NCBI GenBank assembly: GCA_030145195.1
Contig: JAQYVY010000038.1
Span: 1 to 33,950, forward strand
DNA length: 33,950 bases
From: Desulfuromonadales bacterium
Lineage (GTDB): Bacteria; Desulfobacterota; Desulfuromonadia; Desulfuromonadales; BM103
Direction of reading: 5' to 3'
Shown: piece by piece, positions 13,957 through 21,524 of the stretch
Position numbering within the stretch: position 1 is the stretch's first letter
Layout of the letters: each line of letters begins with the position of its first letter
Position numbers and translations under genes: made by a program
The notes under the pieces: generated by a model
What the model was told of the DNA's origin: nothing
Databases searched by the model: none
The model's input: only the letters and a program-made list of their open reading frames with translations

Positions 13957-15717
13957 ATGGGTTTAAAAAAGTGCCCCATAATTAGAACTCCCAATTATCG
14001 AGAACTTTATCTACGGACCCCAATGATGATGCATTCTCTTGATCTCAATGGGCGGATTATAGCTGTTAGTGACTTCTGGCTGGAAACTCTAGGGTATTTG
14101 ACGGAAGAAGTCCTCGGCCATAAATTGACTGATTTCTTTACGGAAGAATCACGTCAGTTGGCTGAAAAAACGGTACTACCCAAATTTTTTGAAGTCGGTT
14201 CGGTCCGCGATGTTCCCTACCAAATGGTTAAAAAAGACGGCAGCCTGATTGATGTTCTGATCTCCGCCTGTTCCGAGTGTGACGAGCAAGGTGGAATAAT
14301 CTGTAGCCTGGCTGGTGTCGTCGATGTGACCGAGCTCAAGAAGGCTGAGGCCGAGGCCATGAGACTGGCTCATTACGATACTCTGACTGGTCAGCCGAAC
14401 CGTTTTCTGCTTCAGGATCGGCTGGGACATGCCTTGGAGCATGCTCATCGCGAGGGTGAAACGGTGGGGGTTTTGTTTATTGACCTCGATCACTTCAAGT
14501 GGGTTAACGATACCCTTGGTCATGCTTTTGGTGATCAACTATTGAAAATGGTCGCGGGTCGTTTGCAAAATTGTGCTCGTAAGGGGGATACGGTTGCCCG
14601 TCTTGGCGGCGATGAATTTGTTGTTGTCCTGTGTGATTCCAATTCGCAGGAGGATCCGTCGCATTTTGCAAAACGTTTTCTCGATGCGCTGGCCCAACCG
14701 ATTCATTTGGAGGGGAAGGAAATTCACAACTCCGGTAGTATTGGCATTGCCATTTATCCCATGGATGGTCGAGATGTCGATACCTTGTTGCGCAATGCCG
14801 ACATCGCCATGTACGCTGCCAAGGAATCGGGACGCAACAACTACCAGTTTTATTCATCGGAAATGAATGCCCTGTCCATCGATAAAATGAATATGGAGAG
14901 TAATCTTCGCCGTGCACTCAAGAATGAAGAGTTCTTTCTTGAATTTCAGCCGCAGCTTGATCTGTCCGGTGCTGGAATTGTTGGTTTCGAAGCGTTGATT
15001 CGCTGGCAGGACCCGGTTGCAGGGCGAATCATGCCTAAGGATTTTATCCCCCTTGCCGAAGAGAGCGGCTTGATCTGTCAGATTGGAGAATGGGTCCTCA
15101 GGACGGCCTGCAGGCAGGCACAAGACTGGCGTAAATCCGGACAACCACCTGTGCGAATCGCCGTCAATGTGTCAGGCAAACAGTTTCGGCAACACGATTT
15201 CATGGATATGCTCGAGGAGGTTCTCAATGATACCGGGTTTAATGCCAGCGACCTGGAGATTGAACTGACGGAGAGCGTCGTTATGGATAATATAGAAGGC
15301 AGTGTTGGGACTCTGACCGATCTCAAAATGCGCGACATCCATCTCGCCATCGACGATTTTGGCACGGGGCACTCGTCATTGACTTACCTCAAACACTTTC
15401 CGTTTGATCGTCTGAAAATTGCCCAGGAATTTGTGCGCGACATCCCTGATGATCCAGAGGATATGGCAATTGTTCAGGCTATTGTGGCGATGGCAAAGAG
15501 CTTAAAGCTGGGGGTGATTGCCGAAGGCGTCGAGAATAAAGCACAACTCGATTTTCTGCGCTCCAGACGCTGCAATGAGATGCAAGGTTTTTACTTCTCC
15601 CCGCCGTTGCCTGCAGATATCCTTGCTGAGCGCTTTGAGGATGGTTGGCTGCAACGGAGGCTCTGCCCCTTTTCTGGATGGAGAAGAGGCCCCGATGCTG
15701 TTGCGGTGTCAAACTGA
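13957..15717 (+). CDS. PAS-GGDEF-EAL cyclic di-GMP signalling protein
   Basis: 586 residues from the ATG at 13957; an in-frame ATG at 13876 would add 27 residues but has no ribosome site, while AGCAGG precedes 13957. Domain order: PAS (about 18-128), GGDEF (about 135-295), EAL (about 315-560). The GGDEF motif is intact (217-221) and preceded by the product-inhibition site RKGD at the canonical spacing (RxxD, five residues, GGDEF). The EAL domain has Glu in GFEALIRW (345), Asn404, Glu436, Asp466-Asp467, Lys487, Glu523 and Gln543, so all metal and catalytic positions are present; only the Asp after KI in KIDxxF is Ala (KIAQEF). It can in principle both make and break c-di-GMP. No membrane segments. 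It stands alone, convergent with the rhodanese gene 20 bases away. Confidence 0.94.
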   Translation: MGLKKCPIIRTPNYRELYLRTPMMMHSLDLNGRIIAVSDFWLETLGYLTEEVLGHKLTDFFTEESRQLAEKTVLPKFFEVGSVRDVPYQMVKKDGSLIDVLISACSECDEQGGIICSLAGVVDVTELKKAEAEAMRLAHYDTLTGQPNRFLLQDRLGHALEHAHREGETVGVLFIDLDHFKWVNDTLGHAFGDQLLKMVAGRLQNCARKGDTVARLGGDEFVVVLCDSNSQEDPSHFAKRFLDALAQPIHLEGKEIHNSGSIGIAIYPMDGRDVDTLLRNADIAMYAAKESGRNNYQFYSSEMNALSIDKMNMESNLRRALKNEEFFLEFQPQLDLSGAGIVGFEALIRWQDPVAGRIMPKDFIPLAEESGLICQIGEWVLRTACRQAQDWRKSGQPPVRIAVNVSGKQFRQHDFMDMLEEVLNDTGFNASDLEIELTESVVMDNIEGSVGTLTDLKMRDIHLAIDDFGTGHSSLTYLKHFPFDRLKIAQEFVRDIPDDPEDMAIVQAIVAMAKSLKLGVIAEGVENKAQLDFLRSRRCNEMQGFYFSPPLPADILAERFEDGWLQRRLCPFSGWRRGPDAVAVSN

Positions 15718-15737: not shown

Positions 15738-16169
15738 CTACAGTTCCTCTACCTCCAGGCCTGCTCCTTGCCACGCTTCATAGCCACCCTCTAATGCCCA
15801 AACGCGAACGAACCCCTGTGCTTTGAGTATTTGCGCCAAACTGGCGCTTGAGGCCTCATTCGGTCAGGTGCAATAGGTCACAATGGCCGTGTTGGTCGGA
15901 TACTTGCCTGCAAAGTCGGCCAACTCTCGGTTGTTGGTCAGACGAAGAGCTCCCGGAATCTTGTTGGTTGCCTTTGTCCAATGACCACTGTTCCGGGTAT
16001 CGATGAAGAGAGGTTCCTCTCCCCCGGACATCATGGCTTGTAGCTCTTCAATGGAGATTCGTGCGGCCTGCTCGTTGCTCGCAGCATAACTGTTGGTCGC
16101 GTTTGCACCGCTGAGGAGAAAGCCTGCGACCAGCAGGAATAAAAACAAGTGGATTCTGATGTTGCGCAT
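15738..16169 (-). CDS. Periplasmic rhodanese-like protein, probable selenoprotein (in-frame TGA at 15864-15866)
   Basis: 143 residues if the TGA at codon 102 is read as selenocysteine; 101 if it stops. The ATG at 16169 has GGAGGT just upstream. A signal peptide (hydrophobic 8-20) predicts export. The rhodanese fold shows FIDTRNSGHW, then the active loop VTYCT followed by TGA and PNEASSASLAQILKAQGF, and finally VWALEGGYEAWQGAGL. The loop in close homologues reads YCxCPNEA, so the TGA sits exactly where a Cys is expected, giving Cys-Thr-Sec. All 41 codons after it still encode the expected rhodanese C-terminus with no further lesion. A SECIS-like hairpin lies at the right distance. Alternative: a recent nonsense mutation. 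The TGA was read from the given sequence and not independently verified. Confidence 0.8.
15833..15847 (-). promoter_or_regulatory. SECIS-like hairpin 16 bases after the in-frame TGA
   Basis: On the mRNA the sequence GCGCCA-GUU-UGGCGC forms a 6-bp stem with a loop that begins with G. The loop starts 23 bases after UGA. Bacterial SECIS elements need a small apical loop with a G in its first positions, roughly 16-37 bases after UGA, so this fits. UGAG and CUCA further out could extend the stem. Confidence 0.6.
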
Positions 16170-16286
16170 AAATGACCTCCGGGCCTTTTAGGATTTCAGC
16201 TTTCGAGGCTGATTATAACATTAAATTAAATCCCGTGCTTTTAACTGTGGTTTGGGGTTGTTGTGAGCTACAAACTCAAAGATAAA

Positions 16287-20334: not shown

Positions 20335-20783
20335 TTCTGCTGATTGAGTTTTTTTGCTGCGATAGTTGTGCTGCTTTTTTGATGTTCCTCAAGTGAGTTT
20401 TATCCGAAACCTCTGGTAGGCTCTCTGTTAAAACCTTTTCTGTCCTATGTTGATAACTTTAACCGCTGAATTGACCGACTGTAGAAATGCCAGTAGTGGT
20501 CCTTCTTGTTGTTGAGACAGTAACCCGTACAGCAATTCTCTCGTTGTAGCCCAGAGGCCGAAGTAAGTTTAGTCAATAAGGCTCTAGAAGAGAGGTGTCG
20601 TGTTATCTATTGGCCGGGAATTGTCACGACAGGTCTGTCGTATTGGTTTAGCTAATTCATCATCGCTGGCGTGAAATTATTTAAGTTGAACCAAGGTTAG
20701 AAGTGGTTTAATGTTTAAAGTATTAGTTTGTTGCTGAGCGACTTTTCTAAATATGGTTCCCCCATAATCAGATGGAGATTGTC
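20335..20783. other. 449-base gap after the RelE-like gene
   Basis: I looked here for an antitoxin and found no reading frame with coding character or ribosome site on either strand. No strong hairpin or repeat is visible apart from short T runs. The promoter of the double rhodanese gene is presumably near the 3' end. Confidence 0.5.
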
Positions 20784-21524
20784 ATGTTCGAACGAATTAA
20801 ATTGTTTGCTCTGCTTGGTGTTGTGCTCTTGCTGCCCTTATTTGCAGATTATGCTGTGGCAGCGAACCAATATCTTGATGTCGACGCTGCTACTGTCAAA
20901 AAGATGATAGAAACAGAAGACGTTTTGGTGGTTTTCCCATTAAGCCCGATTGAGTTTAACGATCTGCATATTAAAGGTTCAGTGAATATTCCGATGGAAC
21001 GTCTTTCTGCGGAACTGCCAATGGATAAAACCCGGAAACTGGTTTTTTACTGTCTCGGAGTGAAGTGTGTTGCGTCATGGCGGGCTGCCGAAAAAGCGGT
21101 TGAGCTGGGCTACAAAAAAGTTTATGCCTTCCGCGAAGGCTTGCCAGCCTGGGTCGCTGCCGGGTATCCGACCGTATCCCTCGGGAAATTGCCAGACTTT
21201 CCGGTCAATACTATTTCAACCGAGGAATTGGCTACCAGCCTTGAGTCCGATAATTTTACTCTGGTCGATATTAACCTTGAAGAGGATGCCCAAAAGTTCT
21301 GGATTAGTCATCCGCAAAGGATTCACATCCCTCTCAATGAACTGCATCTGCAATGTGATCAGCTTGACAAGTCACATCGAATCGCCGTGATGTGCCTTAA
21401 AGGCAAGCGTTCACCAACGGCGGTTCGCTACCTTAAGAGCAAAGGTTTTGATGATGTTGTGTCTGTTGATGGCGGCATCCAGAAGTGGCTTCTAGAGGGT
21501 CGCCCGGTTAAACAGGGCGGCTAA
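20784..21524 (+). CDS. Exported double-rhodanese protein
   Basis: 246 residues from the ATG at 20784, chosen for GGAG 7 bases upstream; an ATG four codons earlier has none. A signal peptide (hydrophobic 7-20, likely cut after AVA near 26) predicts a periplasmic protein. Two rhodanese domains follow. The first (about 30-132) has the loop FYCLGVKCVAS with Cys90 and a second Cys five residues on. The second (about 142-243) has VMCLKGKRSPTA with Cys204 and the usual basic residues. Both keep a candidate catalytic Cys, so both may carry persulfide sulfur; the usual aspartate region in domain 1 is altered (VVFPLSPIEF). It ends with a strong terminator. Confidence 0.9.
   Translation: MFERIKLFALLGVVLLLPLFADYAVAANQYLDVDAATVKKMIETEDVLVVFPLSPIEFNDLHIKGSVNIPMERLSAELPMDKTRKLVFYCLGVKCVASWRAAEKAVELGYKKVYAFREGLPAWVAAGYPTVSLGKLPDFPVNTISTEELATSLESDNFTLVDINLEEDAQKFWISHPQRIHIPLNELHLQCDQLDKSHRIAVMCLKGKRSPTAVRYLKSKGFDDVVSVDGGIQKWLLEGRPVKQGG

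Follow-up and report, generated by a model that had tools for sequence, protein, structure and literature searches.

The window examined here, i.e., the whole 33,950-nucleotide stretch of DNA from a Desulfuromonadales bacterium (contig JAQYVY010000038.1), harbors a small rhodanese-like reading frame with a TGA codon in the middle of its predicted active loop. The locus raises the question of whether this TGA ends the protein or is decoded as selenocysteine (Sec, U), and of what a rhodanese fold equipped with Sec might do in the cell.

The interrupted frame and its surroundings

The frame extends over 144 codons on the minus strand (16169–15738), and its sole interruption is the TGA at 15864–15866. 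The first-pass annotation had described the same single break without giving the strand, and the loop it had read (TYC-T-U-PNEA) as well as the normal LEGGYEAW end following the TGA were both borne out by the sequence. On reading through, the product would be a rhodanese of 143 residues with the active loop Y-C100-T-U102-P-N-E, the LEGGYEAW motif falling in its C-terminal part. The features of the locus are as follows:

16176–16180, minus strand: GGAGG, likely ribosome-binding site, 6 bases 5′ of the ATG (from the sequence)
15738–16169, minus strand: predicted rhodanese selenoprotein coding sequence, 143 residues plus the TAG stop (supported by relatives whose homologous frames contain a single TGA); the ATG start at 16169 and the TAG at 15738–15740 were read from the sequence
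16080–16169, minus strand: signal-peptide-like N-terminus, about residues 1–30 (hydrophobic stretch, by inspection)
15765–16052, minus strand: rhodanese domain, residues 40–135 (Pfam PF00581, 52.5 bits against a cut-off of 22.2)
15870–15872, minus strand: codon of Cys100, which aligns with the catalytic Cys of rhodaneses (rhodanese-domain alignment; among the 103 TGA relatives, 99 have Cys and 4 have Sec)
15864–15866, minus strand: TGA, predicted Sec codon, residue 102 (TGA 103, TGC/TGT 17, TCA 2, and TGG 0 of 134 aligned loci)
15833–15847, minus strand: putative SECIS hairpin with arms 15847–15842 and 15838–15833 and loop 15841–15839, GUU (covariation in 101 relatives)
15822–15866, minus strand: UGA together with the putative SECIS, as matched by the covariance model R1 built without the window (52.8 bits, E 2e-12; next match in the window 10.0 bits)

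Standard-code frame calling cuts the protein at residue 101, midway through the active loop. The rhodanese domain spans the TGA, since the Pfam Rhodanese match covers residues 40–135. Were the TGA a normal stop or the result of a nonsense mutation, the gene would be a pseudogene or yield a truncated protein of 101 residues. Such frame calling agrees with this reading, and TGA does terminate other frames of the window, e.g., a PAS-GGDEF-EAL gene at 15717, but the truncated product would be devoid of roughly one third of the domain.

By a crude count, a hydrophobic N-terminus was present in 92 of the 103 TGA relatives, and the N-terminus of the window's rhodanese probably directs it to the cell envelope. 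The gene is preceded upstream by an ACT-domain gene on the same strand, and the PAS-GGDEF-EAL gene converges on it from the other side; viewing these flanking genes gave no sign of an operon at the rhodanese locus. A scan for promoters and terminators returned no promoter-like and one terminator-like site, which was not above the level of shuffled sequences. AlphaFold2 modeling of the protein alone, without an alignment, gave a mean pLDDT of 61.9, too poor for describing the loop, for a fold search, or for a Cys–Sec distance. The window also contains a second rhodanese gene on the plus strand (20772–21524), with two stretches matched by Pfam Rhodanese, a signal-like N-terminus, and no Sec.

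The TGA column in homologs and the decoding machinery

In a set of 147 relative genomes that also contained the genome of the window, 126 had a match to the protein at E 0.001 or better. The best 55 matches in these genomes each contained an in-frame TGA, and one of them also contained a TAA. In a draw of 395 genomes from the phylum, the protein had matches in 92 at a threshold of E 1e-9, with TGA in most, among the matches listed. After 12 duplicates had been dropped from the 146 extracted rows, the 134 non-redundant aligned loci showed TGA in 103, a Cys codon (TGC or TGT) in 17, TCA in two, and TGG in none at the Sec column, the sequences being related so that these counts, like the stem counts below, are not counts of independent events. 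The remaining 12 rows (35.0 to 65.5 bits) were rhodaneses with other loops. The frame following the TGA was conserved across the 103 loci, and a stop codon held at one column with a conserved frame beyond it makes a pseudogene or a truncated protein highly improbable.

The first-pass annotation had placed the TGA where homologous loops of the YCxCPNEA type have Cys, and it had proposed the alignment of this column as a check. The comparison, from which L011 (47 bits) and the 12 rows carrying other codons were left out, agreed with this: the column is predicted Sec in the 103 related loci, and 16 homologs of at least 55 bits have Cys there, the loop being CxC in 15 of them and SxC in one. Nine of the 16 Cys homologs came from plasmid records (9 fetched of 34 matching). 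In two relatives (L159 and L161), TCA encodes Ser at the Sec column while Cys100 is kept; hence, Sec or Cys may not be essential in every relative. A scan of the genome's contigs returned eight loci, with a CxC or CxU loop in none of their alignments. L100 represents another rhodanese, in which an in-frame TGA lies elsewhere in the loop (YCNGFS-U-GQS) and which resembles the UxxS form in the available part of the review tables.

The genes selA, selB, selC, and selD, which had been suggested as a further check, were all present in the genome. tRNA-Sec (selC) scored 68.1 bits, with the anticodon tca according to ARAGORN, while SelA, SelB, and SelD scored 617.9, 398.7, and 350.5 bits, respectively. 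SelD (contig C39, 1–882; locus L106) carries one in-frame TGA of its own and is therefore probably a selenoprotein too. Contig C39 carries selA, selB, and selD together, and the window's rhodanese and the sel genes are on different contigs; a selenium operon, considered as a candidate arrangement, was rejected on this ground. The co-occurrence with SelB is uninformative because 126 of the 147 relatives pass the SelB cut-off.

The genome is represented by one assembly and single-base errors do occur, so that the TGA might be a sequencing error, or it might stand for tryptophan in this organism. Such explanations are opposed by the TGA common to 102 other loci, by the lack of any homolog with TGG, by the presence of tRNA-Sec and SelB, and by the other genes that end in TGA, and they are scarcely credible. 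The locus almost certainly encodes a small rhodanese-like protein in which the TGA is read as Sec and not as a stop, and on the comparative sequence data it can be regarded with very high confidence as a true selenoprotein gene belonging to the CxU rhodaneses.

A conserved hairpin downstream of the UGA

Sixteen bases 3′ of the UGA lies GCGCCA-GUU-UGGCGC, i.e., a stem of 6 bp with a GUU loop starting at base 23, exactly the geometry given in the first-pass annotation. Its proposal that this hairpin suits a bacterial SECIS was in turn upheld by conservation of the hairpin in the TGA genes, with compensatory changes at synonymous positions. All five core pairs (positions 17–21 with 27–31 after the UGA) were intact in 100 of the 103 TGA genes; on synonymous codon randomization (500 trials), the core stem was intact in 4.6% on average and in 12.6% at the maximum. 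All five pairs were present in two of the 16 Cys homologs (L112 and L151), a number reached by 18 of the 500 randomizations. Positions 18 and 30, which are mostly synonymous third codon positions, showed C-G in 48, U-A in 41, U-G in 13, and C-C in one of the 103 genes. In the 90 genes having Ser AGY and Ala at these codons, in which the change is silent, the counts were C-G 40, U-A 38, U-G 11, and C-C 1.

Of the 103 TGA rows, the covariance alignment took in 101 and left out the window plus one other. In these 101 sequences, 99.2% of cells were paired and four of the five pairs showed double changes, with a covariation score of 0.285 as against 0.139 for shuffled and at most 0.136 for slid alignments. 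The covariance model built from the relatives served as the SECIS search; in the whole genome, the site scored 52.9 and the next candidate 17.9 (150 of 1386 first-look candidates scored), protein conservation also contributing to these scores. The G of the apical loop at position 23 (alignment column 26) was invariant in the 101 relatives, and positions 23–24 were GU in 90 of the 103 TGA genes and GG in the other 13.

The folding energy of the window's hairpin was unexceptional (z −1.46), 19 of 200 shuffled sequences folding at least as well, and Rfam at its gathering thresholds gave no match in the window. The hairpin is a real constraint on these genes as judged from the comparison of relatives, and not from the folding energy of a single hairpin; covariation at synonymous positions constitutes strong comparative evidence for a SECIS even without an experiment. 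A shorter group of proteins (L091, L092, L093, L094, L099, L102, and L103; about 105–110 residues where complete), apparently unexported and with an FYC-x-U loop, has the hairpin stem altered by paired substitutions.

Family placement and proposed chemistry of the active loop

The best NCBIfam match of the protein was NF041203 (“rhodanese_LYCAU,” a rhodanese-related (seleno)protein), with a score of 97.5 bits, below the model's cut-off of 115; when the genome was searched, the score was 90.2 bits. This model scored over its cut-off in 25 of the 147 relative genomes, with one TGA each among the matches listed. Phylogenetic analysis placed the window's protein in a 20-member clade made up entirely of Sec rows (support 100/97), and the LYC[AST]U type in a separate clade of 47 (41 Sec, 3 UxU, 2 Ser, and 1 Cys; support 97/96), in a tree of 117 of the 121 rows (four TGA rows were too short) that has few columns and a bootstrap not fully settled. 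Owing to the score below the cut-off and the separate clade, the protein is grouped as a CxU rhodanese selenoprotein in the broad sense and not as a member of the curated family in the limits set by that cut-off; a rhodanese domain and Cys-x-Sec in the active loop, the features of this broad kind in the available part of the review tables, were both found in it. It shares with NF041203 a single rhodanese domain, a Y-C-x-U loop, Glu three residues past the Sec, and the same SECIS geometry, but the loop is LYC[AST]U in NF041203 and TYCTU in the window's protein.

The protein was also compared with other known systems. Fusions of a VTT/DedA-like domain with rhodanese, annotated in plasmid records as DedA family protein/thiosulfate sulfurtransferase GlpE, have the same loop as CxCPNE with Cys in the Sec column; those of the plasmid records are all Cys (9 of 34 fetched), carry the membrane domain in front, and mostly lack the SECIS-type stem. 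Proteins of the GlpE type (Escherichia coli GlpE, PDB 1gmx) consist of a single rhodanese domain as here, and the window's protein scored 24.6 bits to the solved chain; they differ in having no Sec, and the score with the GlpE model was 42.1 bits, below its cut-off of 102. TsoB (NF045694), which is rhodanese/DsbD fusion-like, likewise has a rhodanese domain in a selenoprotein, but it differs in its UxxxxU motif and fused DsbD-like part, as given in the available part of its description, and the window's protein scored 21.1 bits with this model against a cut-off of 805.

The first-pass annotation had noted that rhodanese-related selenoproteins were predicted before, and the accessible parts of the literature support this. 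The CxU form is listed as “COG0607 form 2, CxU” in PMC9312934, where it is credited to Zhang and Gladyshev (2005), and as rhodanese “form 3, CxU” with NF041203 in PMC13188914. Earlier rhodanese-type selenoproteins are found in the available parts of PMC1088965, PMC2398784, and PMC5029168, and the corresponding part of PMC8318568 includes a rhodanese-like domain among the Sec proteins predicted for a marine deltaproteobacterium. Rhodanese appears in PMC1794560, as far as its text was available, in the reference list only, and it is not mentioned in PMC12013277. According to the available part of PMC9312934, it is not clear what most of the predicted selenoproteins do, and no experimental test of CxU rhodanese function was found in the open-licence literature searched. 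The CxU rhodanese kind is already known as a prediction, and the window's gene is a well-supported new member of it, in a clade that the curated selenoprotein model NF041203 misses at its cut-off.

With regard to the active loop, Cys100 occupies the place where rhodaneses bind sulfur. None of the 103 TGA relatives had anything but Cys or Sec at position 100; among the aligned relatives with this loop, those without Sec have Cys in the Sec column, save for two with Ser; and L095, which has Ser at position 100, keeps the other Cys; these observations suggest that the two chalcogens work together. Thiosulfate sulfurtransferases have Arg or Lys in the loop at the place of Glu105. Since Glu was found there in 102 of the 103 TGA relatives in place of the basic residue, the loop is suggestive of a redox or persulfide center rather than of sulfur transfer from thiosulfate. 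The protein is probably an envelope Cys–Sec redox or persulfide center, as far as its function may be read from the loop and the N-terminus.

In the mechanism proposed, SelB and tRNA-Sec would decode the UGA at 15864–15866 as Sec, directed by the hairpin 17–31 bases downstream, to give a 143-residue protein of the rhodanese fold with Cys100 at the catalytic place and Sec102 two residues on. The selenol would attack an oxidized or sulfane-sulfur substrate (a disulfide, persulfide, polysulfide, sulfenic acid, or peroxide), the Cys would resolve the intermediate as an Se–S bond, and another envelope donor would reduce this bond. That Cys100 and Sec102 form one redox pair operating in this manner is a proposal for and against which we see about equal grounds.

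The selenoprotein could instead act as a classical sulfurtransferase via Cys100, Sec102 merely tuning the reaction. The rhodanese fold and the conserved position of the catalytic Cys are in favor of such a role, as is the GlpE annotation of some VTT/DedA-fused Cys homologs in plasmid records, but the Glu in the loop, the retention of the other Cys in L095 when Cys100 is replaced by Ser, and the low score with the GlpE model make it rather unlikely. A further alternative is that of a selenium carrier, holding perselenide in the envelope and having a role in selenite reduction or selenium supply. Rhodanese has reportedly been converted to a perselenide form (in work said to be that of Ogasawara in 2001). 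In Geobacter, the available parts of two reports on the ext cluster with its rhodanese lipoprotein ExtH place extH together with extI, the loss of which impairs selenite and tellurite reduction (PMC5877670, PMC6148476). ExtH (49 kDa) is much larger, though, and at most a candidate for the CxU kind, and the window's gene and the sel genes are on different contigs; a carrier role appears improbable.

With the Cys–Sec redox or persulfide center as the preferred reading, the locus is a clear instance, open to testing, of a rhodanese fold that has probably become a selenium redox center. A broader scheme, speculative and itself rather doubtful, would regard the CxU rhodanese as a modular selenium redox center of the envelope and not as a sulfurtransferase, in which CxC, CxU, and UxU loops pass electrons between envelope donors and oxidized sulfur and the TYCTU protein of the window is the free-standing form; in relatives, this module would be the part fused to a multiheme cytochrome c or to VTT/DedA-like membrane domains and, in one sub-clade, the neighbor of a Sec-MsrA gene.

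The relatives showed several variants of the loop and of the domain arrangement. In L126, L127, L131, and L137, the loop is the double-Sec Y-U-x-U, with TGA also at the place of the catalytic Cys and the same hairpin downstream. The UxU label needs three changes on the tree, in two separate clades, and more than one origin is therefore the simplest reading. A Sec-rhodanese is located behind a VTT/DedA-like membrane domain in L148 and L149 (Pfam-checked), and by look alone also in L144, L145, L146, L147, L150, L155, and L156. In L162 (3–836, minus strand), a Sec-rhodanese of the LYCAU type is joined to a multiheme cytochrome (Cytochrome_C554, Pfam) in a frame that runs off the fetched stretch. 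The UxU loop, the fusion of Sec-rhodanese with VTT, and the cytochrome fusion were not found in the available parts of the open-licence literature searched by topic, and UxU was absent from the accessible part of PMC13188914. The cytochrome and VTT/DedA-like fusions are hints to possible partners, and together with the double-Sec loops they point to electron transfer rather than sulfur transfer as the first question.

Across the 32 loci examined, no operon or partner was conserved in the whole clade. In seven of these 32, the Sec-rhodanese had an MsrA-type ORF next to it on the other strand, and an MsrA start with GUFWG (Sec) was observed in L025, L026, L027, L031, L037, and L104 (L081 and L025 are one place). 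Two MsrA genes occur in the genome of the window, both on other contigs and with no TGA, on account of which a firm tie between Sec-rhodanese and Sec-MsrA was rejected; a Sec-MsrA neighbor that this genome does not share amounts to a weak hint. L147 (TGA), one of the VTT/DedA-like fusions, and L151 (TGT) are sisters in the tree, indicative of a recent exchange between Sec and Cys with the hairpin still present.
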